In this document: positions 3,314 through 18,622 of the stretch, piece after piece
How positions within the stretch are numbered: position 1 is the stretch's first letter
How the letters are laid out: every line of letters starts with the position of its first letter
Virus record (IMG/VR): IMGVR_UViG_3300047560_001299
Location: 1-33,452 of that record
Source of the DNA: a virus
DNA: 33,452 nucleotides
Reading direction: 5' to 3' (one strand)
Position numbers and translations under genes: made by a program
The notes under the pieces: generated by a model
The model's input: only the letters and a program-made list of their open reading frames with translations
The model's database searches: none
Told to the model about the DNA's origin: nothing

Positions 3314-4435
3314 ATGGCACGATATAATACAGTAGCGCCAGTTGGTACTACCACGACTACTACAACCTTGTCGTCATTGACACAAGGTCAGTTGACAACC
3401 TTTACTGGTTCTGGCCCATATACTGTTACACTGGCTAGTCCTGTATTATATTCAGGTCAGTCACAAACTTACTGGAATAACACTGGTGCAGCAGTAACTT
3501 TAACAACCCCTAGTGGTAACATTAAGGGTCCTGGTTTTACTGCGGCAGCATCACAAGTTATTCCTAACCAAGCAGCGTATACATTAACTTCTGATGGTAC
3601 TGACTTCGTTGTAACAAACAACGAAGGTGGTCCACAGATTGGATCAACATTAACATTATCTAGTTCATTAAGTGTTGTTGGTATCACTAACACTGGTGCA
3701 TTAACAGTTAACCCAAGTAACGCCAACGTTAGTATTACACCAACTGGTTCTGGTACAATTACATTGACTTCTGGTACTACTGGTACAATGGATAACATTA
3801 ATATTGGTGGTACTACACGTGGTTCTGCAAACTTCACATCAGTGAACGCAAACGGTGACTTAGTTACAACATCAAGTACTGGTTCTTCAAGCACATCAAC
3901 TGGTGCGCTAAGAGTTTCAGGCGGTGCTGGTATTGCTGGTAACGTGTATGCTGGTGGTAACGTTGTTTCTGGTGGTTATGGTCAGTTTTCTGGCACAATG
4001 GCTGTACAGAGTACGACTGGTTCATCAAGCTATTCTAGCGGTGCGTTAGTTGTTGGTGGAGGTGTTGGTATTGGTGGTGCGTTATACGTTTCTAGCGTTA
4101 TTAACTGCGGTAACGATATTACTGCTTGGTATTCATCAGATAGAAACCTCAAAACTAAGATTACCCCAATTGGCAATGCACTAAATAAGATCGATAAAAT
4201 TGGCGGCTATAATTTCGATTGGAATCAATTAGCTCTTGATCTATATCCAGATCGTAAAGTAAACGATATTGGTGTTATTGCTCAAGAGATCGAAGAAGTA
4301 CTTCCAGAAGCTGTTATCAAACGTGATAATGGTTATCTGGCTGTAAACTATGAAAAAATTGTTCCATTATTGATTCAAGGCATTAAAGAACTTAGTGCAG
4401 AAGTTGCCAGCCTTAAAGCAAGAATTGGAGAGTAA
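3314..4435 (+). CDS. Tail fibre protein with C-terminal peptidase S74 intramolecular chaperone
   Basis: 373 residues. The N-terminal two thirds are Thr/Ser/Gly-rich fibre sequence with two copies of a (S/T)xGAL(R/V)V(S/G)GG(A/V)GI(A/G)G module, at about residues 196-220 and 233-256. The last 100 residues form a peptidase S74 domain: S275-D-R-N-L-K280 supplies the Ser/Lys dyad known from endosialidase chaperones, followed by the DIGVIAQEIEEVLPEAV core and a C-terminal helix. In that family the domain trimerises the fibre and then cuts itself off at the Ser. Both dyad residues are present, so cleavage of roughly 100 residues is predicted. The gene starts 16 nt after its neighbour and is part of the plus-strand fibre cluster. 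Confidence 0.9.
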   Translation: MARYNTVAPVGTTTTTTTLSSLTQGQLTTFTGSGPYTVTLASPVLYSGQSQTYWNNTGAAVTLTTPSGNIKGPGFTAAASQVIPNQAAYTLTSDGTDFVVTNNEGGPQIGSTLTLSSSLSVVGITNTGALTVNPSNANVSITPTGSGTITLTSGTTGTMDNINIGGTTRGSANFTSVNANGDLVTTSSTGSSSTSTGALRVSGGAGIAGNVYAGGNVVSGGYGQFSGTMAVQSTTGSSSYSSGALVVGGGVGIGGALYVSSVINCGNDITAWYSSDRNLKTKITPIGNALNKIDKIGGYNFDWNQLALDLYPDRKVNDIGVIAQEIEEVLPEAVIKRDNGYLAVNYEKIVPLLIQGIKELSAEVASLKARIGE

Positions 4436-4438
4436 TAC

Positions 4439-5098
4439 ATGTCAGTAAAGCTAACGTCAACGGGTATTGTATACCCAGATAGCACTTCACAAACTGCTAG
4501 GTATGACGCCAACGATGACCGCGGTAAGTTACTAAGAGTTGACTCTTGGACTACCAACGGTTCATATACTTGGAGTAGACCTTCAGGTGGCCGTATGGTA
4601 CGTATTATTTGTGTTGGTGGTGGTGGCGGTGCTAGTGGACACTGTGAGGGCGGCGGGTCTGGTGGTTATTCAGAACTTTGGCTTGATGTTACAGGTATTA
4701 GTTCTACAACTGTTACTGTTGGTCGCGGTGGCTACGGTGCGGGGTATTACTCAAACCGTGAAGATGGATACACATCTAGTTTTGGTCCATATGTAGCTGC
4801 TTCTGGCGGATATGGTGCAAATCGTAACTGGGGCCATACAGGTGGCCACGGTGGTATTGGACACGGTGGTAACGTGAACTTACGTGGTGGCGGTGGTTCT
4901 GGACATGAAAATGAAGCCGGACACAACGGCGCAGGTTCATATTGGGGCGGTGGGTCAATTGGTGCTCACCATCATGCACACGGTAACAACACAGAAAACC
5001 ATTGCGCTCCAGGCGCGGGCGGCGTTGGAACATGGACATCACATGGACGTGGTGAACATGGTAAAGACGGCGCAGTAATGGTATGGAATTTTACGTAA
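4439..5098 (+). CDS. Glycine-rich adhesin-like tail protein, copy 1 of 4
   Basis: 219 residues. The N-terminus (KLTSTGIVYPDSTSQT) is the short fibre-attachment-like motif shared by all four copies. After a YTWSRPSG strand comes a long region with GGGGGASGHCEGGGSGG, GGYGANRNWGHTGGHGG and further glycine islands. This matches the phage glycine-rich domain family and recalls T4-type gp38 adhesins, where polyglycine helices support receptor-binding loops. It is the most divergent copy with copy 2, and has a His-rich loop (AHHHAHGNN) near residues 176-184. The gene starts 3 nt after the S74 fibre stop codon, so translation is probably coupled. A receptor-binding role is inferred. Confidence 0.8.
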   Translation: MSVKLTSTGIVYPDSTSQTARYDANDDRGKLLRVDSWTTNGSYTWSRPSGGRMVRIICVGGGGGASGHCEGGGSGGYSELWLDVTGISSTTVTVGRGGYGAGYYSNREDGYTSSFGPYVAASGGYGANRNWGHTGGHGGIGHGGNVNLRGGGGSGHENEAGHNGAGSYWGGGSIGAHHHAHGNNTENHCAPGAGGVGTWTSHGRGEHGKDGAVMVWNFT

Positions 5099-5107
5099 GA
5101 GAGAAAT

Positions 5108-5773
5108 ATGACAGTTAAATTAACATCATCTGGTATTCAATATAATGACGGTACAGTACAATCTACCACATTTAACTATTCATTGGACAAAGGTAGATTA
5201 ATCAGAGTTGATACATTCACAAGCAGTGGTACTTGGACAAAGCCGTCTGATTGCCGAAAGATTGTAGTTGTTTGTGTTGGTGGTGGCGGTGGTGGTTGCG
5301 GCCACAATGAATCCGGCGGTGCAGGTGGTTATTCAGAATTATTATTAGATGCTACTGGCTTGTCAACAGTAAGTGTGACAATCGGTGGCGGTGGTGACGG
5401 TAGAACATATCACCAAGGTTGTGGTGATGGCGGTCAAACCGCGTTTGGTCCATATAATCACGCAACTGGTGGTCGTGGTGCAAATACAGACTGGGGCCAC
5501 ACTGGTGGCCGTGGTGGCCACGGTGGTGGCGGTAACGTAAACGTGTGGGGTGGCGGTGGCCGTTCACATGGTGACCAAGGCCAAGACCGTGGTGGTGAAT
5601 CATTTTTTGGCGGCTCTCAAGTTGCTGGACACCATGGTGGTTACTACTATAGACACTGGAACGAAGGTTTGAACCACAATCCTCCAGGTACTGGTGGTAA
5701 TGGCGAGTGGTCACAACATAGCCGTGGTGGTTATGGCACAAGTGGCATTTGTATTGTTTATAACTATTCATAA
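5108..5773 (+). CDS. Glycine-rich adhesin-like tail protein, copy 2 of 4
   Basis: 221 residues with the same plan as the other copies: N-terminal KLTSSGIQYNDGTVQST, a WTKPSDCRKIVVVCVGGGGGG strand-plus-glycine segment, then ANTDWGHTGGRGGHGG glycine islands and a short C-terminal beta strand (GICIVYNYS). It follows copy 1 after 9 nt with a GAGAG-type ribosome binding site. The core is conserved between copies, while the loops after the first glycine run differ strongly from copies 1 and 3. That is the pattern expected of a scaffold with variable binding loops. Function is inferred from architecture and location. Confidence 0.8.
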   Translation: MTVKLTSSGIQYNDGTVQSTTFNYSLDKGRLIRVDTFTSSGTWTKPSDCRKIVVVCVGGGGGGCGHNESGGAGGYSELLLDATGLSTVSVTIGGGGDGRTYHQGCGDGGQTAFGPYNHATGGRGANTDWGHTGGRGGHGGGGNVNVWGGGGRSHGDQGQDRGGESFFGGSQVAGHHGGYYYRHWNEGLNHNPPGTGGNGEWSQHSRGGYGTSGICIVYNYS

Positions 5774-5782
5774 CAGATTATT

Positions 5783-6472
5783 ATGGCAACAAAAATCGGA
5801 AATACACAAATTACATTCCCTGATGGATCAGTTCAGTCTAACCGATTTATGCAGGATGCTGATTCACAAGGTGAATTGATTCAAATTGATACATTCCCAC
5901 CTGGTAACAGTCATAATTTGTCAGTTTCTGGTGGCTATACTTGGACAAAACCATCTGGCTGTCGATACGTGAGAGCAGTTGTAGTCGGTGGTGGTGGTGG
6001 TTCTTGCGCTCACGGGGAATCCGGTGCCGCTGGCGGTATGGCTGAAAAATATATAGATGTATCCGGTTATAGCACAGTGTCAGTTACTGTCGGTGGACGT
6101 GGTGCAGGTGGCGGTTACTATTCTAACTGTGGCGATGGTGGTACTAGTAGCTTTGGTCCATGGATTTCAGCAAGTGGTGGTTACGGTGCAAATCGCAACT
6201 GGGGGCATTCAGGCGGACATGGTGGCCAAGGCCATGGTGGCGATATTAATGTATTCGGTGGTGGTGGTTCAGGACACGACAACCGCGGTGGTAAGGGCGG
6301 TATGAGCTTCTATGGCGGCTCTAAATTCCCTGGATGGCACAATAACTCATATGGCTACACTGGTGAAGACCATTACCAAGCACCTGGTGCAGGTGGTTCA
6401 AGTTGTCACTCAAACCACTCTCGAGGTGGATACGGTGCTTCTGGAATTGTAGTTGTATATTCTTACAGATAA
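5783..6472 (+). CDS. Glycine-rich adhesin-like tail protein, copy 3 of 4
   Basis: 229 residues. It starts MATKIGNTQITFPDGSVQ and continues with GYTWTKPSGCRYVRAVVVGG, then glycine islands containing C75, C116 and C208. It differs from copy 4 at only five residues (19, 26, 41, 108 and 186) although the two genes differ at many synonymous positions. The ATG follows copy 2 by 9 nt and has no strong ribosome binding site (ACAGATTATT precedes it). A tail-tip or fibre adhesin is the best guess. The alternative, a fibre-bound accessory protein without receptor contact, cannot be excluded. Confidence 0.8.
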   Translation: MATKIGNTQITFPDGSVQSNRFMQDADSQGELIQIDTFPPGNSHNLSVSGGYTWTKPSGCRYVRAVVVGGGGGSCAHGESGAAGGMAEKYIDVSGYSTVSVTVGGRGAGGGYYSNCGDGGTSSFGPWISASGGYGANRNWGHSGGHGGQGHGGDINVFGGGGSGHDNRGGKGGMSFYGGSKFPGWHNNSYGYTGEDHYQAPGAGGSSCHSNHSRGGYGASGIVVVYSYR

Positions 6473-6487
6473 GATTTAAGGTATAAA

Positions 6488-7177
6488 ATGGCAACAAAAA
6501 TCGGAAATACACAAATTACATTCCCTGATGGTTCGGTTCAAGCAAACCGTTTCATGCAGGACACTGACTCACAGGGGGAATTAATTCAAATTGATACATT
6601 TCCACCGAGTAATAGTCACAATCTTTCTGTGTCTGGTGGTTATACTTGGACAAAACCAAGTGGATGTAGATATGTGCGAGCAGTTGTAGTCGGTGGTGGC
6701 GGCGGCTCATGTGCCCACGGTGAATCTGGAGCAGCTGGTGGTATGGCTGAAAAATACATCGACGTAAGTGGATATAGCACAGTGTCAGTTACTGTTGGTG
6801 GTCGCGGATGGGGCGGTGGTTATTACTCAAATTGCGGTGACGGTGGAACAAGTTCATTTGGCCCATGGATTTCAGCAAGTGGTGGCTATGGCGCAAATCG
6901 TAACTGGGGTCACTCAGGCGGCCATGGTGGTCAAGGACACGGCGGTGATATTAACGTATTTGGCGGTGGTGGTTCAGGACATGATAACCGCGGCGGGAAA
7001 GGTGGTATGAGTTTCTACGGTGGATCAAAGTTCCCTGGATGGAGTAATAATTCATACGGTTACACTGGTGAAGATCATTACCAAGCACCTGGTGCAGGCG
7101 GTTCGAGCTGCCACTCAAACCATTCTCGCGGTGGTTATGGCGCATCCGGAATTGTTGTAGTATATTCCTACAGATAA
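6488..7177 (+). CDS. Glycine-rich adhesin-like tail protein, copy 4 of 4
   Basis: 229 residues, nearly identical in protein sequence to copy 3. The replacements are S19A, A26T, G41S, A108W and H186S (copy 3 to copy 4). The first 44 nt of the two genes are identical. A weak ribosome binding site (AAGG) lies just upstream of the ATG. It is the last gene of the adhesin array and is followed by a perfect 8-bp hairpin and then the halogenase. The A108W change needs three base substitutions in one codon and lies in a glycine-rich loop after VTVGGRG, so it is a candidate specificity position. Confidence 0.8.
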   Translation: MATKIGNTQITFPDGSVQANRFMQDTDSQGELIQIDTFPPSNSHNLSVSGGYTWTKPSGCRYVRAVVVGGGGGSCAHGESGAAGGMAEKYIDVSGYSTVSVTVGGRGWGGGYYSNCGDGGTSSFGPWISASGGYGANRNWGHSGGHGGQGHGGDINVFGGGGSGHDNRGGKGGMSFYGGSKFPGWSNNSYGYTGEDHYQAPGAGGSSCHSNHSRGGYGASGIVVVYSYR

Positions 7178-7208: not shown

Positions 7209-8840
7209 ATGCAAATCAAAAGTGTTTTAATTGTCGGTGGTGGGAGTTCAGGTTGGATGACAGCAGCCGCATTAGTTCGTCAAATACCATCTCTTAAAAT
7301 TACACTGATGGAAGCACCGGGCATTCCAACTATTGGTGTCGGTGAAAGTACAATTGGTCACATCAACAGCTATATGAACGCAGTTGGTCTTAAAGACGAA
7401 GAGTGGATGCCACACTGCAACGCAACATATAAAACATCAATTAAGTTTACTGATTTTAGAGAAGCACCTGGTGAAAAGCCAGATGTATTCCATTATCCAT
7501 TCGGTATATGCGATATTACACATAAACCAAATGGTCCAATGGAATGGTTCTTGTTAAATGCTGGCGACAAAGATGCATGGCCACCACGCTCGTTTGCTGA
7601 ATTTTATCACCCACACGTTGTTATGGCTGATCATAACAAAATGACAAATAATGAAAATTTTGAAATTCGTGGTTTTAATTTCAAATACGATACTGCATAC
7701 CACATGGATGCTGCATTATTTGGTCAATACTTAAAGAATCATGTTTGTATTCCAGAAGGTGTTAACCACATTCTTGATACAATGACAGGCGCAACAAAGG
7801 CCGATGACGGTTCAATCTCAGGTATTATTACTGAAAACAGCGGTACATTAACTGCTGACTTGTATATTGACTGTACTGGTTTCCGTTCACTGTTGTTGGA
7901 AGGTCAAATGGGATCAGAATTTATTTCATTCCACGACACATTGATGAACGACAGAGCCATTGCAACAATTATTCCGTACATTGATACTGAAAATGAAATG
8001 ACTTCTGCTACAAACTGTACTGCATTGGAAGCAGGATGGGCATGGAACATTCCATTGTTTAATCGTATTGGTACAGGGTATGTTTACTCAAGCAAATTTG
8101 CAACTGAGGAAGAAGCTGAAGCACAATTTAGAAAGTACTTAGCAAGCAACCGCATGGACTACCATGGAGAAGGTGCTCAAGAACGTGCAGAACAAGCTGA
8201 ATTAAAGCATATCAAGATTAAGCACGGTACACACAAGCAGGGCTGGATTAAAAATGTTGTAGGCATTGGATTGGCTATGGGCTTTATTGAGCCACTAGAG
8301 TCAACTGGTTTAATGTTAACACACGAGGGTATCATGAAGATTATTGATACACTACAACAGCACGACGGCTTTGTAACTAAATTTGACATTGACACTTACA
8401 ATTTTGCGTTCCATGACCAAATTGTTGGTTTTAAAGACTTTATTTCTTTGCACTACACAATGTCACAACGTCATGACACCCCATATTGGCAATATGTAAC
8501 ACAGGAACTAAGCTATTCACCAGAAATGAATGATTGGGTTCCACGCTTACGCAATGCATATATGGATCTTTCAACTAGAATTTTAACTAATCACGCATAT
8601 GACTTTAATATGGGTGGAGTTATGTATATCGCTGCCGGACAGAACTATAATCCGGTAAATAAGAGATACTTACAAGATGATAATGATAGGTATGGTATGC
8701 GTAATCAATGGAGTGCTGAAGAAAGCACAAAGAATTGGGTCGAATATAGAGACAACGTTTTATTACCAACAATTGAGAAATTACCTACCCATTATGAGTA
8801 TCTAAAAAAACATATTCATATTAAGAATGAGGAGCAATAA
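7209..8840 (+). CDS. Flavin-dependent halogenase (tryptophan halogenase family, VirX1-like)
   Basis: 543 residues, full length for the family. Visible hallmarks are the FAD-binding GGGSSGW at residues 10-16; CNATYK with Lys75, matching the catalytic Lys79 of PrnA; the family motif W277-A-W279-N-I-P282; and GFIEPLESTG at 358-367, which holds the conserved Glu region. Such enzymes use FADH2, O2 and halide to generate HOX, which Lys relays to an aromatic substrate. A viral member from cyanophage Syn10 (VirX1) is an iodinating halogenase with broad substrate range. No flavin reductase is seen here, so reduced flavin would come from the host. The gene lies 31 nt after the adhesin array and is probably expressed with it. 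Substrate and halide are unknown. Confidence 0.9.
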   Translation: MQIKSVLIVGGGSSGWMTAAALVRQIPSLKITLMEAPGIPTIGVGESTIGHINSYMNAVGLKDEEWMPHCNATYKTSIKFTDFREAPGEKPDVFHYPFGICDITHKPNGPMEWFLLNAGDKDAWPPRSFAEFYHPHVVMADHNKMTNNENFEIRGFNFKYDTAYHMDAALFGQYLKNHVCIPEGVNHILDTMTGATKADDGSISGIITENSGTLTADLYIDCTGFRSLLLEGQMGSEFISFHDTLMNDRAIATIIPYIDTENEMTSATNCTALEAGWAWNIPLFNRIGTGYVYSSKFATEEEAEAQFRKYLASNRMDYHGEGAQERAEQAELKHIKIKHGTHKQGWIKNVVGIGLAMGFIEPLESTGLMLTHEGIMKIIDTLQQHDGFVTKFDIDTYNFAFHDQIVGFKDFISLHYTMSQRHDTPYWQYVTQELSYSPEMNDWVPRLRNAYMDLSTRILTNHAYDFNMGGVMYIAAGQNYNPVNKRYLQDDNDRYGMRNQWSAEESTKNWVEYRDNVLLPTIEKLPTHYEYLKKHIHIKNEEQ

Positions 8841-8842
8841 AA

Positions 8843-9364
8843 ATGGCAAGATACGCACTAGTGCATATTAAGGAAACCCGTGTTCAAGGTATCGCGGAAA
8901 ATGAACAAGAACGTTTTGACGTCCACGTTGACAGTGTTTGGCACGAATGCGGACCAGAAGTTCAATTCATGTGGGAATACAACTGGGAAACTGGTGAATT
9001 TAGTCCACCATATAAACCAGAAACTCGTTACGAAGTTGCTCGTAGAGTTGCATATGGTGACGTTGGTTCACAGCTTGATACTATTTTTAAAGCAGTACAA
9101 AATGGTGACACGGACCCGTTGGCTGAATGGGCAGCAAGGATTGAAAAAATTAAGATTTTATTCCCTAAAGACAACCATGAAGCAATGTTAGCAGCTAATG
9201 ATGAGTTATCTAGCAGAGTGGAAGTAATGATTAATTTACATGATGAACACCCAGACGATCCTGCATATAGAATCAAAACACCACAGGAAATGGCTGACGA
9301 GTTGGCAGCAGATTACATGAGTGGAAAATGGGATAACCCAGTTTCTGGTCCATATAAACCATAA
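8843..9364 (+). CDS. Conserved hypothetical phage protein
   Basis: 173 residues, acidic and soluble, with no signal peptide or membrane segment. It begins 2 nt after the halogenase stop; a GAGGAG ribosome binding site lies inside the end of the halogenase gene, so the two are likely translationally coupled. Residues 63-110 contain YEVARRVAYGD, then GSQLDTIFKAVQNG, then a W...I..IK..FPK segment. A similar QLD-containing segment occurs in short proteins and tail-associated proteins of marine phages, but I cannot name a function. Coupling to the halogenase suggests a partner or substrate-handling role, which is inference only. An intrinsic terminator follows. Confidence 0.65.
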   Translation: MARYALVHIKETRVQGIAENEQERFDVHVDSVWHECGPEVQFMWEYNWETGEFSPPYKPETRYEVARRVAYGDVGSQLDTIFKAVQNGDTDPLAEWAARIEKIKILFPKDNHEAMLAANDELSSRVEVMINLHDEHPDDPAYRIKTPQEMADELAADYMSGKWDNPVSGPYKP

Positions 9365-9421: not shown

Positions 9422-10705
9422 ATGAGCAATTACAATAAACTATTTTCATTCGGTTACCCTAGTTTTACTAAGGACCCAGAGCTTTACTACCACTGCATTA
9501 AAAACTCACATCCTAGATACCGAGCAGAAATATTTGATATCTATTTCTCAGACCCATATCGATACACATACAACGGTGTAGAAAGAATTTACGGTGATGT
9601 GATGGCTGCGCCTCTGGATGAAGCACACATTCAAACGCTACTAAAGATCCAGAAAGAATTTGGTATTGAAATATCATTAACTTTTAACGAAACATATCCT
9701 AATAGGGAGTTAGTTGAAGACATGGATATTATGAATGGTTTTGTAGACCATATTGGTAAGTACTATGAAATGGGTGTACGTTCGTGTACTATTTCACATG
9801 TACATATGATGGCTACTACTATATTACAACGTAATTTCCCAGAAATGCGCTGGAAGAATACTGTAAATCATATCATTACCACTCCACAGCAAGTAGTTGA
9901 TTACCATGCTCTTGGATATGACGTTATTAACTTGGATCGAAGTTTAAACCGTAATATGGATGCACTTGAAGCAATGCAACCAGTTCGTAAAAAGTTTCCC
10001 AATTTAAAACTATCATTGCTAGTAACAGAGGGCTGTATGCCTAACTGTGCATTCAAAGTTGAGCATGATACGATGAATAAAGAAATTGGGTGGAGTTACT
10101 GGGAAAATCATGGCAACATGACATGTAAACGTTGGCGCCATCAGATGTATAACGAACTCCCACGTATTGGTACCGAAATGGTTTGGGCAAATAAAGCTAC
10201 GTTTGAAGAATATAGAAATAAGGTTGACTACTTTAAATTTTCTGGACGCATGATGTCAATGCCAAACAATAGCTATGATCAGAAATTTGTCTGGTCAAAT
10301 ATTGCACACGTCAAAGGACAAAAGTGGGCTGCTGACAATGCAAACCTAAATGGTGTCATTGAATCAGGTGCTCAATATGGCATGGCAAATTATTTTGAAG
10401 AAATAATGGAAAATAATCCAGGAGTTGTTTCTAATTTCCAACCGTTGCGCTATTGTAATGTCAAGTATGAGTCTACTTTTGAAAATGTCGCACAAATTGA
10501 TAGTGAGACTGTATGGACTACTGGTAAAGGAAAGTCACTCAATGCTGTTCTAAAGAATTGTAAGAACGAGTGTTGGGATTGCCACGCATGTGAAAGAACT
10601 TTTGGAGCACCGGACTTTGACAGTCTAATTGAAGTAAACCGCGATGCCCAAGCACTACGTGGACATGCGGATCACTTTAAAGGTATTAAAATAATTACTC
10701 AGTAG
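9422..10705 (+). CDS. Peptidase U32-like TIM-barrel protein with probable Fe-S cluster
   Basis: 427 residues. The fold signature resembles the U32 family (UbiU/UbiV, RlhA, YhbU relatives): NLDRSLNRNMDAL near 170-182, LLVTEGCMPNCAF with C205 and C209, C235 after it, and VDYFKFSGRMMS at 268-279, which matches the family KxxGR segment. A C-terminal cluster C380-x3-C384-x2-C387-x2-C390 is a second likely metal or Fe-S site. U32 proteins of the UbiUV/RlhA type are hydroxylation factors; others were annotated as collagenase-like proteases. There is no radical-SAM CxxxCxxC. The gene directly follows a terminator and has no visible ribosome binding site or late box. Its 3' end overlaps the convergent oxygenase array by 11 nt. 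A role in the modification island is inferred. Confidence 0.6.
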   Translation: MSNYNKLFSFGYPSFTKDPELYYHCIKNSHPRYRAEIFDIYFSDPYRYTYNGVERIYGDVMAAPLDEAHIQTLLKIQKEFGIEISLTFNETYPNRELVEDMDIMNGFVDHIGKYYEMGVRSCTISHVHMMATTILQRNFPEMRWKNTVNHIITTPQQVVDYHALGYDVINLDRSLNRNMDALEAMQPVRKKFPNLKLSLLVTEGCMPNCAFKVEHDTMNKEIGWSYWENHGNMTCKRWRHQMYNELPRIGTEMVWANKATFEEYRNKVDYFKFSGRMMSMPNNSYDQKFVWSNIAHVKGQKWAADNANLNGVIESGAQYGMANYFEEIMENNPGVVSNFQPLRYCNVKYESTFENVAQIDSETVWTTGKGKSLNAVLKNCKNECWDCHACERTFGAPDFDSLIEVNRDAQALRGHADHFKGIKIITQ

Positions 10706-11318
10706 TTTTGGCAAACCAGTTGAAGTTAATATTCAATCTGGTTTTATTAGTTACTGGGCGTGATCCAGAGTGATAATAATCACCATCAAATAATACCATA
10801 CGATTGCGTTTAGGCGGAACCGCACAGAGTACTTTAAAATCATCTTTATTCTTTCTATAATACTCTAATGCCTGGTTGGTTGTTGATCCAACTGGGCATT
10901 TATTATCATAGATATATGTTGGGCCATCGGAGTCATTTAAATACAAAATTGCAGTGTTCATAGCAACATCTGGTTGATCAACGTGTGGTTCAAATGGAGC
11001 ATTAGTAATAGATGTAGTGCTTAGATTTGCTTTAACCCTGGCTAATGATGACATTTTATATCCTAAAGCAAACTCACAATGTGCCATTAGTGGAACAAAC
11101 GCTTCATAAGCAGGCGCTTTAAACTCAAATTGTTCATCAATTTTTTGCAAATATATTAAGCATGAAAATCCGTCATCCCACAGAGCTTCGTCATCACTGT
11201 ACTTGCTCTTATAGGTAGTATCTTTTAAATAAAACCATGGAAAGTCAAAGGACGTTATATCCTGATAAAGTCTTTCAAATAATGGTTCTGGTAAGAAATC
11301 GTCAATAATTTTAATCAT
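10695..11318 (-). CDS. 2OG-Fe(II) oxygenase-like protein, array member 8
   Basis: 207 residues from the ATG at 11318; six more codons to an in-frame ATG at 11336 are unlikely because 11318 makes an ATGA overlap with the preceding gene. The start (MIKIIDDFLP) matches its paralogues. Iron ligands H112-x-D114 and H183 and the 2OG-binding R194 (KTRLNINF) are all present in a double-stranded beta-helix context. The paralogous signature reads DSDGPT here instead of DSDGDT, and an insert of about 20 residues with TTNQALEYYRKNK follows it, so this is the most diverged member of the six-gene subfamily. It is the last gene of the minus-strand unit. Substrate unknown. Confidence 0.85.
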   Translation of the reverse strand: MIKIIDDFLPEPLFERLYQDITSFDFPWFYLKDTTYKSKYSDDEALWDDGFSCLIYLQKIDEQFEFKAPAYEAFVPLMAHCEFALGYKMSSLARVKANLSTTSITNAPFEPHVDQPDVAMNTAILYLNDSDGPTYIYDNKCPVGSTTNQALEYYRKNKDDFKVLCAVPPKRNRMVLFDGDYYHSGSRPVTNKTRLNINFNWFAKTTE

Positions 11319-11905
11319 TTTACGTGAGATGCCCAAGTTGTAATAATATATTTTTCGTTAGATAGTGGCGGATTGCCACGATGTGTATGTGTAAAATCAG
11401 CTGGGCATATTAGAACTCGCCCGGCTTTTGCTTGCACCCTACGTGGATAATAGTGGAACTCAGTCTCACCACCGTCATCAACATCATTAAGGTATAGGAT
11501 CATGGCCAGCATTCTATGCTGATTTTCTAAATCCCCACGCTCATGGTGCCAAACATGGTATCCTCCATTAATTGGTGTCTTTTGCAACCTATATGAATAC
11601 ACTCCATAATTTGTTGAGTATAGAATGTCATAGTGATTAAAATATGCATTTATACAATCAGCAAATGCTCTATTTGCTTCTTGCAAAATATTTGTATTAT
11701 GCAACTGGAATTCCTGTTGCATTTCATCTTGGAAAAAGTAAGTGTCATCCTGCTTTTTAAACTTTTCAACACCCTCTGCTGCTTGCCTACTGCAAGTTAA
11801 TGATGCATTCTGTACATATCTGTAATAGTCAATAACATCGTTGCAAAACTCTTTGCTAACAACATCGTCAAAAATACCAATAAAGTCTTTAATATCTGAT
11901 TTCAT
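11315..11905 (-). CDS. Prolyl-4-hydroxylase-like 2OG-Fe(II) oxygenase, array member 7
   Basis: 196 residues. It belongs to a different subfamily from most of the array: GGYHVWHHERGD gives an HxE type facial triad (H120, E122), followed by MILYLNDVDDGGETEF and FTHTHRGNPP, where H172 or H174 is the distal iron ligand. K185 in NEKYIITTW takes the 2OG-binding position. This arrangement resembles P4H-like oxygenases frequent in cyanophages, which hydroxylate protein side chains in cellular relatives. It starts 7 nt after member 6, the only non-overlapping junction of the array, and ends in an ATGA overlap with member 8. Confidence 0.87.
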   Translation of the reverse strand: MKSDIKDFIGIFDDVVSKEFCNDVIDYYRYVQNASLTCSRQAAEGVEKFKKQDDTYFFQDEMQQEFQLHNTNILQEANRAFADCINAYFNHYDILYSTNYGVYSYRLQKTPINGGYHVWHHERGDLENQHRMLAMILYLNDVDDGGETEFHYYPRRVQAKAGRVLICPADFTHTHRGNPPLSNEKYIITTWASHVK

Positions 11906-11912
11906 GTTTATC

Positions 11913-12527
11913 TCAATAGAAGTTAATATTTAACACATAACGTCTGCGGTTATGTATAGGATTACTAGGTGCATGGAACCTCAAACCATTAAAACACACA
12001 ATCCTACCCTGCTTTGGTGTAACTCGTTCAGCAGTTTTTACAGCATATTCTTTTATACCTGGTTCCCAGAGTTTATCAAACAATATTGTATCACCATCAC
12101 TATCGTTTATATAATACACTAAAGTTTTGTGCATTTCAAAATTATCTACATGGATCTCATTACAGCAATTGCCATCATATCCATATATTGGGGATACACT
12201 TTGGTTATTGACTTTCATACGCATAACACCGTTGACTTTTTCACCAGTTTTTTGCGAGTATCCATCTAATACAGCCATTCCTAACCAATATATAGTTTCA
12301 TCAAAAATTTTACTACGTCTAAAATCATTATAATAGCATAACTTGATCAGTGAATCACTAGGACACATGTTCATGTCTGAAGTTACTGTAACATCCTTAA
12401 AGTACATACCAGCAGTTAAAATGTGGTTGTAATCATTCCACGCAAACTCTGAATCACAGACATAGTCAGCGAGTCTATACTGTGTACGCTTAGGAATTAC
12501 ATCATCTAGTACAATAATATCGTTCAT
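11913..12527 (-). CDS. 2OG-Fe(II) oxygenase-like protein, array member 6
   Basis: 204 residues of the DSDGDT subfamily. H126-x-D128 (EIHVDNF), H185 (RFHAPSNP) and R196 (RRYVLNINF) supply the iron and 2OG ligands. The N-terminal DDVIP motif and the RVTPKQGRIVCFNG segment before the distal His are shared with its paralogues. The central region (residues 100-122) has NCCNE just before the HxD, so Cys121-Cys122 sit near the iron site; that is unusual among the set. The ATG overlaps member 5 by ATGA. Confidence 0.85.
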   Translation of the reverse strand: MNDIIVLDDVIPKRTQYRLADYVCDSEFAWNDYNHILTAGMYFKDVTVTSDMNMCPSDSLIKLCYYNDFRRSKIFDETIYWLGMAVLDGYSQKTGEKVNGVMRMKVNNQSVSPIYGYDGNCCNEIHVDNFEMHKTLVYYINDSDGDTILFDKLWEPGIKEYAVKTAERVTPKQGRIVCFNGLRFHAPSNPIHNRRRYVLNINFY

Positions 12528-13102
12528 ACAAAGTTAAAATTAATAGTGTAGCGTTTAAATGAATTAAGCGGGTTACTTGAGGCATGATATTGTGTCCCAT
12601 CGAATAACACAGCTGACCCACGTTTGGGTGTTATGCGTTGATTAACAGTAAATTTATCAAAAGTCTCACCAGCTCTTTCATTAAAAATAAATGTGTCACC
12701 GTCACTGTTGTCCACGTAATACAATAATACCTTGTGATCATGTTGTTGATCAGTGTGGGCTGAGTTCCACGTATCCTTAGTAAACTCCTTGGATGGGTGT
12801 TGATATAATAAGTTGAATGTAACACGAATTAAATCATTAACTTTAATTCCAGTCAAGTCGTACATATTATCAAAAATTTGCTGTGCGTATGGCATTAGCT
12901 CTTGTACTTCTATTGCATTTTTAATATATGCAGGACACGCATATCCACTTGTATCCATGTTTGTAAAAAACGCTGGCACATTCGATGGGGACTGATATGA
13001 TACAGACTTTCTGTAGTACCATCTAAAGTGTCTTTCATTCACTAAATCAATAAGCCGCTGTTGTGCTGTTAGTGGGATAATGTTATCAAAAACTTGTATC
13101 AT
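12524..13102 (-). CDS. 2OG-Fe(II) oxygenase-like protein, array member 5
   Basis: 192 residues of the DSDGDT subfamily. Ligands are H116-x-D118 (AHTDQQ), H173 (YHASSNP) and R184 (KRYTINFNF). It begins MIQVFDNIIP like the other members, and RITPKRGSAVLFDG precedes the distal His. It has ATGA junctions on both sides. No extra domain is present; the length is typical of a single double-stranded beta-helix enzyme. The substrate cannot be predicted from sequence. Confidence 0.87.
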   Translation of the reverse strand: MIQVFDNIIPLTAQQRLIDLVNERHFRWYYRKSVSYQSPSNVPAFFTNMDTSGYACPAYIKNAIEVQELMPYAQQIFDNMYDLTGIKVNDLIRVTFNLLYQHPSKEFTKDTWNSAHTDQQHDHKVLLYYVDNSDGDTFIFNERAGETFDKFTVNQRITPKRGSAVLFDGTQYHASSNPLNSFKRYTINFNFV

Positions 13103-13707
13103 GCGAAATTAATATTTAAAATTACACGCTCACCGTGATGCATTGGATTCGTGCTAGTATGGTAATGCAGTCCATCAAAGTATGCAATTCTCCCACGCTT
13201 AGGCGCAATACGCTCTTTAATAGTTAATGGTATAAGACTACCATCATGTTCAGGACTCCACTTTTCATTAAAGATGACGGTATCTCCATCACTGTCATTT
13301 ACATAGTATACCAAGACATGATGATTATTATAGAAGTCAATGTGTGGGTAATGCATTGCTGTTTCATCATATTCTGGATTCGGGTTGGGAGTTAGCATAT
13401 TTCCCTTAATGCGAACTAGACGATTTGCTGGGATACCACTAGCTTCAGAAAAATAATCAATAATCATATTACTCATCATGAACATGTCATATGGGTCGTA
13501 CCAAAGTCCATCACGCCAGAACGGCTTTGTCATGCCAGGCGACTCAACATATTTGTATCCCTCTGGCATAATAAATTCGCGTTTTACTTTCTGGCCACCT
13601 AGTGATAAGTTATCCAGGGCAAACCAATAAAATTGGTCATTAAGAAGAGTTGCTTCAATTCTATCAACCAAAGCTGGGGGTAATAAATCATCATACACTT
13701 TAATCAT
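13099..13707 (-). CDS. 2OG-Fe(II) oxygenase-like protein, array member 4
   Basis: 202 residues from the ATG at 13707, chosen because it forms an ATGA overlap with the preceding gene and yields MIKVYDDLLP as in the paralogues; an upstream in-frame ATG at 13713 adds only two residues. Ligands are H122-x-D124 (YPHIDFY), H183 (HYHTSTNP) and R194 (GERVILNINF), with VYYVNDSDGDTVIFNE between. It is a DSDGDT-subfamily member. A long variable segment at residues 40-80 (rich in Met, Trp and Tyr) differs from all neighbours and may set substrate choice. Confidence 0.87.
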   Translation of the reverse strand: MIKVYDDLLPPALVDRIEATLLNDQFYWFALDNLSLGGQKVKREFIMPEGYKYVESPGMTKPFWRDGLWYDPYDMFMMSNMIIDYFSEASGIPANRLVRIKGNMLTPNPNPEYDETAMHYPHIDFYNNHHVLVYYVNDSDGDTVIFNEKWSPEHDGSLIPLTIKERIAPKRGRIAYFDGLHYHTSTNPMHHGERVILNINFA

Positions 13708-14336
13708 GCCCAATTAATCCCAAATGATATTGATAGCCTATTCTTATCAGCAGTCTTGTTTACTGAAATTTCATGGTCCATCCACCCTGGCCAAATTAAT
13801 AAATCGCCAGTAGACGTTTGTACATCGAAATCTGGTATTAACAAGTTCATAGCATTATGGTCTTGATTATGAAAGTATGCAAACTGGTTTGGATCATAAA
13901 ACCCAATCTTTCCAGACTCATCTGGTACATCTAAATAGTATGTACCGCCTAACAAATTCATAGCATGGTGGTGTCTACCTTGATATCCACCTGGGGGATT
14001 TACATTAAACCACATGTTAGTAAAACGCAATGGACGTATATTTTTAAAAACAATCTTTCCATGCTGCTCCAAATGTTCATATCGTTTAGTCACAAACTTA
14101 TTAGCTTCCCTAATAATCATGTCACGGAGTTCATTAAACAATTCATGTGTGTATAAATGTCCCGTAAAGTCATCGTAGAAGTATGTAGTGAACCCAGTGT
14201 GATAAAAGTTTCCCTCTTTTACTGGTGATTCCGCATACATGTCTAACACAAATTTTTTCAACTCGTCATGATTTGATACTCGCGACTCAGTGTTGTGGTA
14301 AATGTGTGATGCAAATGGTTGATAAAACGTGGTCAT
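13704..14336 (-). CDS. Putative 2OG-Fe(II) oxygenase of the 2OG-FeII_Oxy_5 type, array member 3
   Basis: 210 residues with a plan different from its neighbours: MWFNVNPPGGYQGRHHH at 108-124, LLGGTYYLDVP, then TGDLLIWPGWMDHEISVN and NRLSISFGINW at the C-terminus. This matches the phage-rich family in which the first iron ligands read HxH (here H122-x-H124, with H123 between), the distal one is His in SWxxH-type context (H188), and Arg (R200) binds 2OG. It is the only member of this type in the array, joined to both neighbours by ATGA overlaps, so it was recruited rather than duplicated locally. Confidence 0.85.
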   Translation of the reverse strand: MTTFYQPFASHIYHNTESRVSNHDELKKFVLDMYAESPVKEGNFYHTGFTTYFYDDFTGHLYTHELFNELRDMIIREANKFVTKRYEHLEQHGKIVFKNIRPLRFTNMWFNVNPPGGYQGRHHHAMNLLGGTYYLDVPDESGKIGFYDPNQFAYFHNQDHNAMNLLIPDFDVQTSTGDLLIWPGWMDHEISVNKTADKNRLSISFGINWA

Positions 14337-14899
14337 TTGGGTATAAAATTAATGTTTAAAATACAGCGTCTATTATTTGTTGGCCTACTGCTACTGTGGT
14401 AGAGTCGCCCATCAAATACTACGCATCTACCACGCTTGGGCGTTACCTGTTGTTTAATGGTGTATGTTTCTGATTTCTCAGTCTCGTTATAAATGTATGT
14501 ATCACCATCAGAGTCGGTCAAATAATACAGCACAACTAAGTGATTCATTGCCATGTCAGTGTGTGCATTGTTAATTGGGCCATCATTTGACGCAATAGGT
14601 AATTGGAGGAATGCTCGCATTCTAAGTACAGCACCAACATCAAACCCCACTCTTGCGCCTGCTTGATAAAGAACAGGGAGGATATTATAAAAATCAGCAC
14701 CCATGTCAGGCTTAGTTGCACGGTCGTATATTAGGTTAGAAAACCCATAGTGTGTAACTTCTGCTCCTTGATTCTCTGGGTCAGTGTATGTTATATCCTT
14801 TTGAAAATACCATTTATTCTCACCACGGAGAAAATAATATTCAAGGAATTCTTGATGCTGTACTGGAATAATATCGTCAAATACTAGGATATCGTTCAT
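14333..14899 (-). CDS. 2OG-Fe(II) oxygenase-like protein, array member 2
   Basis: 188 residues, the shortest of the DSDGDT subfamily. Ligands are H113-x-D115 (NAHTDMA), H168 (LYHSSSRP) and R178 (RRCILNINF). It begins MNDILVFDDIIP, close to member 6, and has QVTPKRGRCVVFDG before the distal His. It has ATGA junctions with members 1 and 3. All residues needed for Fe(II)/2OG chemistry are present, so it is probably active. Confidence 0.87.
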   Translation of the reverse strand: MNDILVFDDIIPVQHQEFLEYYFLRGENKWYFQKDITYTDPENQGAEVTHYGFSNLIYDRATKPDMGADFYNILPVLYQAGARVGFDVGAVLRMRAFLQLPIASNDGPINNAHTDMAMNHLVVLYYLTDSDGDTYIYNETEKSETYTIKQQVTPKRGRCVVFDGRLYHSSSRPTNNRRCILNINFIPK

Positions 14900-15492
14900 G
14901 CTCTAATACCACCTAATACATTAAAATTAACAATGCAACGAAGCCCATGCTTTGGTTGTTCAGCAGTGTGGTAATAATCACCGTCAAAGATTACTACTCT
15001 GCCCTTCTTGGGAGTTACTCTTACAAGTTGTGGGAAATCAGCAGCTTCAAGTGTATAGTTCGGTGCGCCAACTCGCTTATGGTCAACAATAATAGTGTCA
15101 CCATCGGAATCCATGACATAGTATAGAACTACTAAGTGAGGGAATTGTTGATCAACATGTAGCGCATCCAACTTTGTTGTTGTGAAGCTCTCATGTAAAG
15201 GGACTTGCAAGAATGATCTTGCTTTTTGTATTGAATGAATGTGGTAATTGATCCTACTACAGGCGGCTTCTACCACCGGCATAACTAGTGACAAAAATGG
15301 ATCTGAATGATCGGGCCATTCGGTATTCTTAAAAACGTGACCAAATGCAGGAGTTGACCGATAATCAGCACCTGATCCAAATGTCACATCTGAAATAAAA
15401 TGCCAGTCTGCTTCCGATAGTAATACTTCTTCTATCTTGTCTGCGATTTGTTGTGAAACAATATCGTCAATTATTAGCGGTTCTTTAATCAC
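14896..15492 (-). CDS. 2OG-Fe(II) oxygenase-like protein, array member 1
   Basis: 198 residues from a GTG start at 15492, chosen because it aligns the N-terminus (MIKEPLIIDDIV) with the paralogues; a weak GGGA ribosome binding site precedes it. Ligands are H112-x-D114 (ALHVDQQ), H175 (YYHTAEQP) and R185 (GLRCIVNFN), with DSDGDT at 129-134. It is the first oxygenase after a 62-nt gap from the Nudix gene. No good late promoter is seen in that gap, so it is probably cotranscribed with gp14, gp15 and the Nudix gene. Confidence 0.86.
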   Translation of the reverse strand: MIKEPLIIDDIVSQQIADKIEEVLLSEADWHFISDVTFGSGADYRSTPAFGHVFKNTEWPDHSDPFLSLVMPVVEAACSRINYHIHSIQKARSFLQVPLHESFTTTKLDALHVDQQFPHLVVLYYVMDSDGDTIIVDHKRVGAPNYTLEAADFPQLVRVTPKKGRVVIFDGDYYHTAEQPKHGLRCIVNFNVLGGIRA

Positions 15493-15554: not shown

Positions 15555-16004
15555 TTAGAGAATATCTATTAAATCAAACACTGTTTGCAGTTTTGTGCGA
15601 ATAGTTTTGCTTGAGAAACTATTACGCAATCCTTGGTGTAATGGTTTAGGCGCCCTATCAATTGTGGACCAAGCCCACCCGATATGTTCTGTACTTAGTA
15701 TAGGAACAAACTCGTCCTCAATTACACACAAGTATGTATGGAAGTTAAACACAGTATCATTTGAAACAAAAGTTTCAATTGGGATAGTTTTAATAACTTT
15801 AGGCATTGCGCCTATTTCTTCAATAACTTCCCTCTTTAAACCCTGCCATGGGTTCTCGCCAGGGATATTTGTGCCACCAACTAAACCCCAAGTTCCCTCG
15901 TGTTTACCGTGAGCTTTTTGAACCAACAGAAAGCGCCTAGTAGACTTTGCATAAAACAAAGCGCCACTACAGACGATTTTTTCTGTTATAGTACGATTCT
16001 CCAT
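15555..16004 (-). CDS. Nudix hydrolase
   Basis: 149 residues, a normal size for a single Nudix domain. The Nudix box is complete: G44-x5-E50-x7-R58-E59-V-x-E62-E63-x-G65, which binds Mg2+ and cleaves a nucleoside diphosphate linked to another group. Flanking beta strands (SGALFYA, RFLLVQKA, WGLVGG) fit the fold. The ATG at 16004 lies inside the end of gp15 (19-nt overlap). It sits between the neck gene gp15 and the oxygenase array, so it is expected to be a late gene. The substrate class (sugar nucleotide, dinucleotide, oxidised nucleotide) is not readable from the motif. Confidence 0.88.
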   Translation of the reverse strand: MENRTITEKIVCSGALFYAKSTRRFLLVQKAHGKHEGTWGLVGGTNIPGENPWQGLKREVIEEIGAMPKVIKTIPIETFVSNDTVFNFHTYLCVIEDEFVPILSTEHIGWAWSTIDRAPKPLHQGLRNSFSSKTIRTKLQTVFDLIDIL

Positions 16005-17419
16005 TGTCCAGCTGTATATAATCCATCAAAACGCTTAGTCCATGAAACGTTATTCCATGTATACTGCACTCGAATGTTATTATATATGTTGGATTGTGTA
16101 ATGATTCTTTCTTCTTGAGTAGCATCAAACATAACGTGCCATTGATTGCCATCCCACTCGATTATATCATTAGATTTTGCAATAAAATCAACACCGCTAG
16201 TAGATTTCCAAGCATCAGGACCGTCACCATTAATCGGGTTACCAATGTCTTCAATAATTAAGAATCTATCACCAGCAACGACATTAGACATGCCATTCCC
16301 TGGGTACACTCTTGACGGGTCAATAATAGCATCAAACGTACTTGGGCTACCAAGACGTACACTAGTATATCCATTGTATGGATTAACTGTTAGTGGCTCT
16401 TCATCTGACCATACAAGGTCAGCATCTGGAACAATATTCAACACTGTTGAATCAACTGGATCTGTAGCAATGGTACCTGATATTTCAGAGCCATCAATTT
16501 GCTCAATATAGATCTTTGACGACCCTGCAATATATTGCCCTGGGTATTGGTCAAATAATGAGCCCCAGTCAGCTGGCATAGTCGCATCACCACTATACTT
16601 GTCAAGCTCTGCTTTAAATGTGCTTGCAGTATTATATACTGTAATATTGAAACCACCAATTGTAGTGAATTGTCCTGATAATGCGTTGTCCATTGTTACT
16701 GACCCGCCGCTTAAATCTGGTCCAAATCCGTCAATGTATGTACTGTCGTCAATTGTATTTGATCCAAACAAGCTAGTAACAATGCGTGTAATAACACCCA
16801 AATGTTTAACCTTAACTGGTGGGCTAATCCAAATAGGAGTATCCAATGTTAATGTTGCAACATCGATTGGTGTGTCGTTGCCCACTGGAACTGTTTTACT
16901 AGACCAAGCAACTGCACTCATGTTTAATACTGACAAACTTGTCCAATCAATAAAGTTGCTGTTAGTTTGTAATTCCAAACTTGGGTTAAACAATACTAAA
17001 ATCTGCTCAAGTATCTGTAACTTTTGGTCAGTATTTGCAGACCAAATGTCAACCTTCATAGTTAACTTAAATGGAGTTGGCATTAAACGCTCAACTGTGT
17101 AATTACGGCCTTGTGATTGTGTATATGCACCATCAAGTACATCACGTTCTCTAATATTAACTTTACTGACGAAGCTAGAGTCTGCTAATCGTTCTTTGTC
17201 GATATCTAAACCAGTTACGTACACTGCAATCCTAGGTACAGAGTTGGTTTTATTTTCACTGTTTCCGCGGATAATACTTGCAGCTTGTCTATCAGCATCA
17301 CCGTACATCACGGGTATGCGATGCAAACTACCGTCACCATACTTTACTACAAAGTTGCTAAACACACGAATAGTTTGTGTGATATAGCGTCTTATCTGAC
17401 CATCATAAAAATGCTGCAT
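15986..17419 (-). CDS. gp15: Tail sheath stabilizer / proximal tail completion protein (T4 gp15 homologue)
   Basis: 477 residues against 272 in T4. The N-terminal third matches gp15: HFYDGQIRRYITQTIRVFSNF, then RIPVMYGD, and MPTPFKLTMKVDIWS with ILEQILVLFNPSLE. In T4 this protein forms the hexameric ring that caps the top of the tail tube and sheath and joins the neck. The C-terminal half is an extension of about 200 residues not in T4, with a DGNQW-type Trp motif near its end. It starts in a TAATG overlap with gp14, so the two are coupled. It is on the minus strand, opposite gp13 and gp18. Confidence 0.85.
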   Translation of the reverse strand: MQHFYDGQIRRYITQTIRVFSNFVVKYGDGSLHRIPVMYGDADRQAASIIRGNSENKTNSVPRIAVYVTGLDIDKERLADSSFVSKVNIRERDVLDGAYTQSQGRNYTVERLMPTPFKLTMKVDIWSANTDQKLQILEQILVLFNPSLELQTNSNFIDWTSLSVLNMSAVAWSSKTVPVGNDTPIDVATLTLDTPIWISPPVKVKHLGVITRIVTSLFGSNTIDDSTYIDGFGPDLSGGSVTMDNALSGQFTTIGGFNITVYNTASTFKAELDKYSGDATMPADWGSLFDQYPGQYIAGSSKIYIEQIDGSEISGTIATDPVDSTVLNIVPDADLVWSDEEPLTVNPYNGYTSVRLGSPSTFDAIIDPSRVYPGNGMSNVVAGDRFLIIEDIGNPINGDGPDAWKSTSGVDFIAKSNDIIEWDGNQWHVMFDATQEERIITQSNIYNNIRVQYTWNNVSWTKRFDGLYTAGQWRIVL

Positions 17420-18609
17420 TATAAATCCGCCCTAGGTTTGAGTGCCTTAGATAGTGATTGACGTTCTGGAACCAGATCAGTACCAAATGTATTCTCGTTT
17501 GTGTTATTGATGAATCCAGTTTTGAGTGTTTGACGAGTGTCATTGTTAGTCATTGTCATACGCACAGCGTCTTCATATTTTACCCACGAATTTCCACTAA
17601 AGCGGAATAGTCTGTTGGGGAAGAAATCCACTCTTAAGTAGAAGTCACCGTCTGATGGTGCGTCTGGGAATTGAGATCCGTGACCAAAATCATATCCATT
17701 TGATGGAATCCCGTCGCCTAACAAATATCCAGTATATCCATCGCGCACTGGTCTATTGACGTTTTCACTGACCAAGTCACCATCACTTGCAAATTCAGAG
17801 TCTAGGTCAGCAGTTTGGATAACTGGTTGCCCAGTAGTTGGATCAACACCCAATGTATAATATTGTCGTGTATCACTGCCACTTAGTGGCGCATCAGCTT
17901 CAGCTTGTCCAATTACTTGGTCATTGATGCTAATCTCAGTGTTATATGTGCTTAACAGATCCTTTAATGTTTTGCCACTTGTATCTGGGTCACCATTTGC
18001 ATCAAGTGCAGGCTTGCTGAAAATATCAGAAAATTGTTGATTGTCTGTAATCTTCTTTAACTTTAATCTATACAAATGTGGGAACCAAGTTACACTAAAA
18101 CCTTCACTTGCACGGCCCACATCTTCAATAACATAGTAGCGTGGTAGGCTTACATCAAAGTCACCCAACGCAAAATCATCACGCAAGTGTGGCAGTTCAA
18201 GCACATCACCGCTTATTGGTTTGCGACCAATATATTTGATAAAATCATTAATGTGTACAGTCATGTACAATGTATCGTTGTCAATAAACAATCCGAACTG
18301 ACTTAGATTGAAGTCAATATTTTGTACATTATACAAGCCACGAATTCTGTAAATTTCTTGATCGTATTTTCTATCACGATTCTCTAAAAACAACAAATCT
18401 TGAATGTTAGTGACTGATTGTGTATCAATTTGTGGTTGATCAACCGTCACAGAATCTGGGTCTCTTTGCAGATCAGCGTCTGTTTTAGGACCCATGTATT
18501 TGTGCAAATACACATCAGTACCGCCAGCCTGAAACATTTCAGAAATCTGACGATCTATAAATCTGTAATCGTTGCCCCTTTCTGGGCGGTAAAGAGATAA
18601 TCGTGGCAT
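17419..18609 (-). CDS. gp14: Neck protein (T4 gp14 homologue)
   Basis: 396 residues against 256 in T4. The central segment RGLYNVQNIDFNLSQFG, LYMTVHINDFIKYIGRKP, SGDVLELPHLRDD corresponds to the gp14 region with SNFGMQVQDEVTLSINP, NGKEPKEGDLIYFP. gp14 forms the collar ring between gp13 and gp15 at the head-tail junction. The C-terminal part is longer than in T4 and contains a GDFYLRVDFFPNRLFRFSGN-W module that resembles inserts in the sheath gene here. The ATG has no ribosome binding site but lies 5 nt after a GATAAATA late box, so a leaderless transcript is likely. It leads the minus-strand unit that runs through the oxygenase array. Confidence 0.82.
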   Translation of the reverse strand: MPRLSLYRPERGNDYRFIDRQISEMFQAGGTDVYLHKYMGPKTDADLQRDPDSVTVDQPQIDTQSVTNIQDLLFLENRDRKYDQEIYRIRGLYNVQNIDFNLSQFGLFIDNDTLYMTVHINDFIKYIGRKPISGDVLELPHLRDDFALGDFDVSLPRYYVIEDVGRASEGFSVTWFPHLYRLKLKKITDNQQFSDIFSKPALDANGDPDTSGKTLKDLLSTYNTEISINDQVIGQAEADAPLSGSDTRQYYTLGVDPTTGQPVIQTADLDSEFASDGDLVSENVNRPVRDGYTGYLLGDGIPSNGYDFGHGSQFPDAPSDGDFYLRVDFFPNRLFRFSGNSWVKYEDAVRMTMTNNDTRQTLKTGFINNTNENTFGTDLVPERQSLSKALKPRADL

Positions 18610-18614
18610 AATGA

Positions 18615-18622
18615 TATTTATC
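18615..18622 (-). promoter_or_regulatory. T4-type late promoter box for gp14 unit
   Basis: On the minus strand the box reads GATAAATA, one mismatch from the T4 late consensus TATAAATA. It ends 5 nt before the gp14 ATG. With the usual late spacing, transcription would begin at or next to the start codon. It would drive gp14, gp15, the Nudix gene and the oxygenases. Confidence 0.6.

Follow-up and report, generated by a model that had tools for sequence, protein, structure and literature searches.

Cyanophage genomes as a rule carry between one and five genes for 2-oxoglutarate (2OG)-Fe(II) oxygenases; S-CREM1 has 10 (PMC9964418) and S-SCSM1 has 24 (PMC9602691). Long arrays of such genes are already known in cyanophages, and the row in Syn9, with about ten members, is longer than the one described here. 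The S-CREM1 cluster was published as a set of host-metabolism, DNA-repair and protein-modification genes, and the accessible sections of that paper (PMC9964418) do not propose a link to adhesins. In the openly accessible literature, with subscription papers and preprints outside the search, we found no proposal that ties 2OG enzymes and a halogenase to tail adhesins. We present the analysis of positions 1 to 33,452 of the IMG/VR record IMGVR_UViG_3300047560_001299 (the window), a 33.4 kb piece of a T4-like phage of marine type with sheath, tube, gp15-like and terminase-type genes. Eight consecutive 2OG-Fe(II) oxygenase open reading frames (ORFs) run along its minus strand from 15492 to 10695, none of them with an internal stop. 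The identical array, with the same 4,798 bases, is also present on a second contig of 58.5 kb (L001/G001).

We propose, with a probability of roughly 0.4, that this array is the oxygenase part of a late-expressed module which would hydroxylate or halogenate tail-adhesin proteins. We favour this reading because the order of Gly-rich adhesins, phrog_1787, halogenase and 2OG array is conserved and because the linkage survives rearrangement. In the window all of these parts are adjacent. Four Gly-rich tail adhesin-like proteins, the candidate substrates of the array, are encoded on the plus strand at 4439-5098, 5108-5773, 5783-6472 and 6488-7177 (PF21722, phrog_863/phrog_21412 tail fibre, alignment A4). 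The products of the last two genes (5783-7177) are 98% identical, indicating a recent duplication. On the same strand follow a flavin-dependent halogenase of the tryptophan type at 7209-8840 (PF04820, E = 1.6e-105; 6QGM, E = 1e-148) and a small phrog_1787 protein at 8843-9364, a gene that adjoins the adhesins or the halogenase in relatives. The GxGxxG motif, the catalytic Lys, the WxWxIP motif and the Glu of the halogenase are conserved in alignment A5. Its closest solved relative is VirX1 of cyanophage Syn10 (PDB 6QGM), which matches over the full length and has been described as an in vitro halogenase.

The order named above was observed in every one of the eight cultured cyanophages whose halogenases are closest (S-CREM1, Syn9, Sf-FP1, S-RIM44, P-TIM40, S-WAM1, P-RSM6 and S-SZBM1), with either one or two halogenases. 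S-RIM44 and Sf-FP1 have the neck genes shortly after the module, and in P-RSM6 a 2OG gene immediately precedes the adhesin pair. Of 12 cultured phages that were selected from the halogenase matches, 10 have a 2OG gene at most 2 kb away, and adhesin and phrog_1787 neighbours were found in eight. The window differs from the cultured phages in order and strand, as its halogenase precedes phrog_1787 and its array lies on the opposite strand. The IMG/VR relatives show the components in other arrangements and often in larger sets, with 3-5 halogenases and 6-13 oxygenases. The linkage is kept all the same, and several of the metagenomic modules have gp15 on one side and tail fibres or adhesins on the other. 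Exceptions are S-H35 and S-MbCM6, where the halogenase lies elsewhere, and S-SSM7, where it is found within a sugar/carbamoyltransferase cluster (carbamoyltransferase, heptose and epimerase genes). A preliminary description of the window had the anatomy of the array right but missed this recurrent neighbourhood of adhesins, halogenase and oxygenases, which is its main context. A bacterial origin of the halogenase-2OG pairing was considered and rejected, as 80 bacterial halogenase loci yielded only 3 with a phage-type 2OG gene nearby. As a separate observation, L055, L058, L073, L082, L012, L038, L043 and L069 each have four or five genes for flavin halogenases in the same island, and some of these genes lie three in a row.

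The first gene of the array is G8 (14896-15492, GTG start), followed on the minus strand by G7 (14333-14899), G6 (13704-14336), G5 (13099-13707), G4 (12524-13102), G3 (11913-12527), G2 (11315-11905) and G1 (10695-11318). A longest-ORF listing places upstream TTG starts on two of these genes; their ATG starts are at 13707 and 11318. Six of the seven junctions (G8/G7, G7/G6, G6/G5, G5/G4, G4/G3 and G2/G1) are 4-nt ATGA overlaps, while the sole non-overlapping junction, G3/G2, has a gap of 7 nt; ORFs and junctions thus confirm the row of eight as it had been described. A 4-nt overlap occurs in none of the remaining 23 same-strand junctions of the window (Fisher P = 1.2e-5), and hence the coupling belongs to the array and not to the genome.

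Six of the genes (G1, G3, G4, G5, G7 and G8) are of the phrog_274 type, G2 belongs to PF13640/phrog_61 and G6 to the PF13759/phrog_81 subfamily. As G2 and G6 come from other subfamilies, the array is not one duplicated gene. Pfam cut-offs were exceeded by G1, G2, G6 and G7 (for G1 also that of DUF6445); G3, G4, G5 and G8 stayed under the PF13640 cut-off and were assigned via their alignment to other array members. The HxD...H motif and the distal Arg are retained in all six phrog_274-type genes. Across the 49 phrog_274-type sequences of alignment A2 we observed the iron ligands H113 in 49/49, D115 in 48/49 and H168 in 49/49 cases, and the distal 2OG-binding residue R178 in 48/49. The iron motif of G2 is HxE...H. 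G6, a PF13759 member by profile, has HxH in place of HxD and thus not the classical 2-His-1-carboxylate triad, and its HxH...H...R is the conserved set of its subfamily (H122 in 158/159 and H124 in 154/159 PF13759-type members in the loci compared). The same pattern and a C-terminal domain common to G6 are found in 2RG4 and 3BVC, bacterial PF13759 proteins listed as uncharacterized, in an alignment that covers only the last 110 residues of G6. The claim that every member keeps its iron ligands therefore holds if each gene is judged by its own subfamily, but G6 is without the classical carboxylate.

For G7, the sole array member that was modelled, AlphaFold predicted a double-stranded beta-helix resembling prolyl hydroxylases (pLDDT 91.4). 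The top PDB matches of the model are PolD, PHD2 and SnoN, then algal and bacterial prolyl hydroxylases; they include PHD2 with a HIF peptide, an algal prolyl 4-hydroxylase (P4H) with (Ser-Pro)5 and the P. putida P4H with EF-Tu. Matches to a predicted fold of this kind place the superfamily, not the substrate. The prolyl hydroxylases (PHD2/EGLN1, algal P4H, P. putida P4H) have the double-stranded beta-helix, HxD...H and a distal basic residue in common with the array at 10-15% identity and a template modelling score of about 0.6, a likeness to prolyl 4-hydroxylase in fold only. Sequence searches of the PDB with alignments A1, A2, A3 (phrog_1458) and A4 (Gly-rich adhesins) and with one Gly-rich protein gave no matches and so did not confirm the fold of the adhesins. 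The label 'DNA endonuclease V' attached to phrog_274 was rejected, since PF03013 (Pyr_excise) matches none of the eight genes. The 'denV' of S-SSM7 (SSSM7_124, L099:10444-10998) likewise matches PF13640 and not PF03013, and S-CREM1 has a separate, true Pyr_excise protein. This misnaming runs through PHROG 274 and many GenBank records, affecting the six genes of the window between 10698 and 15492, SSSM7_124 and gp51 and gp53 of Syn9. It may explain why denV was reported from 13 cyanophages by one 2010 paper and from none by another.

In order to study selection we used L002, a relative of 84% identity whose array proteins are 75-89% identical and in which five array genes (G4-G8) are comparable. 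In L002 all five are intact, their order is unchanged and each of the four ATGA junctions that join them is preserved. The ratio of nonsynonymous to synonymous substitution rates (dN/dS), computed with NG86, was 0.03-0.10 for G4, G6, G7 and G8 with dS saturated, and was not computable for G5. By gene we obtained 0.034 for G8, 0.055 for G7 and 0.067 for G4; YN00 gave 0.036 for G4 and, with synonymous sites saturated, no value for most array genes. Control genes from the neck, the tail and nearby showed 0.02-0.11. These values and the intact genes and junctions indicate purifying selection and support the view of the preliminary description that the genes are not decaying, and frameshifts or lost ligands in several members were not seen in the relatives.

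A tree of 138 relatives showed that the six phrog_274-type genes are not a clade and need six separate origins. We compared the array position by position with that of L011, a divergent phage contig. Six array members are reciprocal best hits of L011 genes in colinear order (6/6) at 30-55% identity, with 55% for G8 and 43% for G3; G5 has a counterpart as well. The Syn9 and S-CREM1 arrays have nine counterparts in the same order (9/9) at 41-64% identity. Separate origins together with the colinearity in L011 indicate that each array position is an old, separately maintained gene, which favours different targets over gene dosage. The suggestion that the genes form a set with different roles is thereby strengthened. 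For the array as a whole, the tree, the colinearity and the G2 and G6 subfamilies led us to reject the idea that the uniform ATGA junctions arose by recent tandem duplication.

Upstream of the array and on the same strand lie a Nudix hydrolase (15555-16004, PF00293), a gp15-like tail sheath stabiliser (15986-17419, PF16724) and a virion structural protein in the gp14 position (17419-18609, phrog_11591), the first gene of the minus-strand run. Upstream of the latter we found ATAAATA (18615-18621, minus strand), an element resembling T4 late promoters that is conserved in L002. The window has six ATAAATA sites, and four of them precede a start by no more than 60 nt. The enrichment concerns only this placement of ATAAATA with respect to starts, while TATAAATA by itself is not over-represented in the window. 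Along the minus strand we found no terminator-like site in the stretch from 18.6 to 10.7 kb. The sequence suggests that the array is transcribed late with the gp14-position, gp15 and Nudix genes. A single mRNA, as assumed before, is thus plausible, but the near-equal synthesis of all eight enzymes does not follow, as ATGA overlaps alone are insufficient for it.

Under the adhesin-tailoring reading the array would be read late, together with the neck genes, from a minus-strand transcript starting upstream of the gp14-position gene. Each oxygenase, using Fe(II), O2 and 2-oxoglutarate, would hydroxylate its own site or type of residue on freshly synthesised tail-fibre or adhesin proteins, and the halogenase, perhaps with a U32-like enzyme encoded next to the array, would add further modifications. 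Several separate specificities could then make the adhesin surface more diverse or more stable, with an effect on host binding. Late expression, a protein substrate and site specialisation are what we infer for the array enzymes. Several observations support this. The array is co-stranded with the gp15 and gp14-position genes and the conserved late-promoter-like element, and the fold matches of G7 include enzymes acting on proteins. JmjC-type proteins, a class of hydroxylases, are found in sister arrays, and the colinear array of L011 lies near an Mtd_N tail protein. An analogy is offered by the proteobacterial halogenase loci (L113, L115, L124, L125, L127, L130, L132, L133, L142 and L155), in which all 10 of the large proteins picked are TonB-dependent receptors. 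In the experimental evolution of S-TIM4, tail-fibre and baseplate genes acquired most of the mutations, and one 2OG gene was mutated as well (PMC6224464).

A number of points weigh against the reading. To our knowledge no modified virion protein has been described. The TonB candidates were selected by size and barrel-like C-termini, and the metagenomic loci from IMG/VR were retrieved with a 2OG query, so the proximity of 2OG and halogenase genes in them is biased. Related 2OG genes without adhesins adjoin uvsW/uvsY, carbamoyltransferases or aminotransferases, and small sets lie near helicases. The Gly-rich adhesins of several phages with four halogenases contain about 0.4% Trp, which counts against adhesin Trp as the target of halogenation, and the Gly-rich adhesins are also poor in Pro. 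PolD is the best fold match of G7, and SnoN and other small-molecule enzymes reach scores like that of PHD2. Furthermore, the locus is a hypervariable 'host recognition cluster' that also gathers unrelated genes (PMC7029224), and the adjacency of adhesins and array may therefore reflect a mere shared location.

The last point leads to a rival explanation in which individually useful but unrelated enzymes accumulate in the hypervariable region that separates tail fibres from neck genes, the eight oxygenases having eight unrelated roles. The known variability of the region (PMC7029224), the separate origins of the six phrog_274-type genes and the occurrence of 2OG genes at other places in phage genomes agree with such hitch-hiking. 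Order and orthology are, however, kept between divergent arrays (6/6 in L011, 9/9 between Syn9 and S-CREM1) and the linkage survives rearrangement, which exceeds what random collection would lead us to expect, and we regard this explanation as unlikely. We give the same low weight to the idea that these enzymes have the surface of the host cell or a small molecule as their target and, within infected cells, make or decorate a metabolite or a polysaccharide. Iyer et al. (PMC7824862) proposed a halogenated amino-acid or sugar metabolite or a capsule decoration for the S-SSM6a cluster of jumbo cyanophages, and the sugar-related surroundings of the S-SSM7 halogenase, the carbamoyltransferase or nucleotidyltransferase genes next to some 2OG sets and the small-molecule enzymes PolD and SnoN among the top fold matches of G7 fit this idea. 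VirX1 is active on small molecules in vitro, going by the title of Gkotsi et al. 2019 (in PMC10452541). The constant partners are nevertheless tail adhesins and phrog_1787, and no carbamoyltransferase, sugar-nucleotide, non-ribosomal peptide or polyketide synthase or transport gene was found in the annotated or scanned stretch between the adhesins and the array end, neither in the window nor in the eight closest cultured modules.

Two further explanations concern the metabolism and the DNA of the infected cell. Many consumers of 2OG could shift the 2-oxoglutarate of the host and with it NtcA nitrogen signalling, or could feed succinate to respiration, as was proposed for cyanophages by Sullivan et al. 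2010 (PMC3037559). For such a drawdown one strongly expressed enzyme would be enough, and the distinct conserved positions, the halogenases and the adhesin linkage are left unexplained; neither the window nor its 58.5 kb twin has a psbA/psbD-type gene. We consider this explanation very unlikely. A role in DNA repair or in DNA or RNA base modification (AlkB-like, or as a 'DNA endonuclease V') is the least probable of all. It is suggested by the name of PHROG 274 and by P4H-domain genes of Syn9 that adjoin uvsX/uvsY (PMC2984593). The eight genes, however, have no Pfam match to the AlkB-type, TET/JBP or Pyr_excise families, the name itself is contradicted by the S-SSM7 and S-CREM1 proteins described above, and the array in the window is located among tail genes.

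Of the other genes around the module, a tail fibre protein with a C-terminal S74 chaperone is encoded on the plus strand at 3314-4435 (PF13884, phrog tail matches). Convergent with the array lies the gene of a phrog_1458 protein (9422-10705, plus strand, alignment A3) with a U32-like barrel and conserved cysteines, a putative Fe-S enzyme and possibly an Fe-S hydroxylase. The N-terminal part of its model matches the U32 protein MK0906, and the model is reliable in this half only, as the C-terminal half has low confidence. Relatives of phrog_1458 in L033, L052 and L057 have a methyltransferase-like C-terminal part and adjoin 2OG genes. No RNA elements or tRNAs were found in the window. On a 235 kb phage contig (L015/G016, 92691-94718) we observed psbA/psbD-like matches, one of them displayed with a single internal TAG.

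More tentatively still than for the window itself, we suggest that marine T4-like phages may possess a dedicated factory of roughly 4-13 oxygenases and 1-5 halogenases, sometimes with JmjC, methyltransferase or U32-like proteins, that hydroxylates and halogenates their own tail adhesins after translation and so diversifies receptor binding beyond the genetic code. If this is true, protein hydroxylation and halogenation serve phage host recognition, a role for which we found no earlier proposal. The conserved adhesin link offers a concrete candidate substrate for long-unexplained enzymes, and virion mass-spectrometry data exist for S-CREM1 and S-SCSM1. The clusters of Syn9 and S-CREM1 are among the known systems closest to the window. 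In Syn9 (gp38-gp54, NC_008296, 30.3-43.1 kb) Gly-rich adhesins, phrog_1787, halogenases and a long run of overlapping 2OG genes occur as they do here. The Syn9 genes all lie on one strand and comprise two halogenases and roughly ten oxygenase-like genes, some of them of JmjC length, whereas the window has a single halogenase, a U32-like gene and an array on the opposite strand that continues the run of gp14, gp15 and Nudix genes. S-CREM1 (OP535465; PMC9964418) also has one halogenase after the adhesins, the best phage match to that of the window (49%), together with nine overlapping 2OG/JmjC genes.

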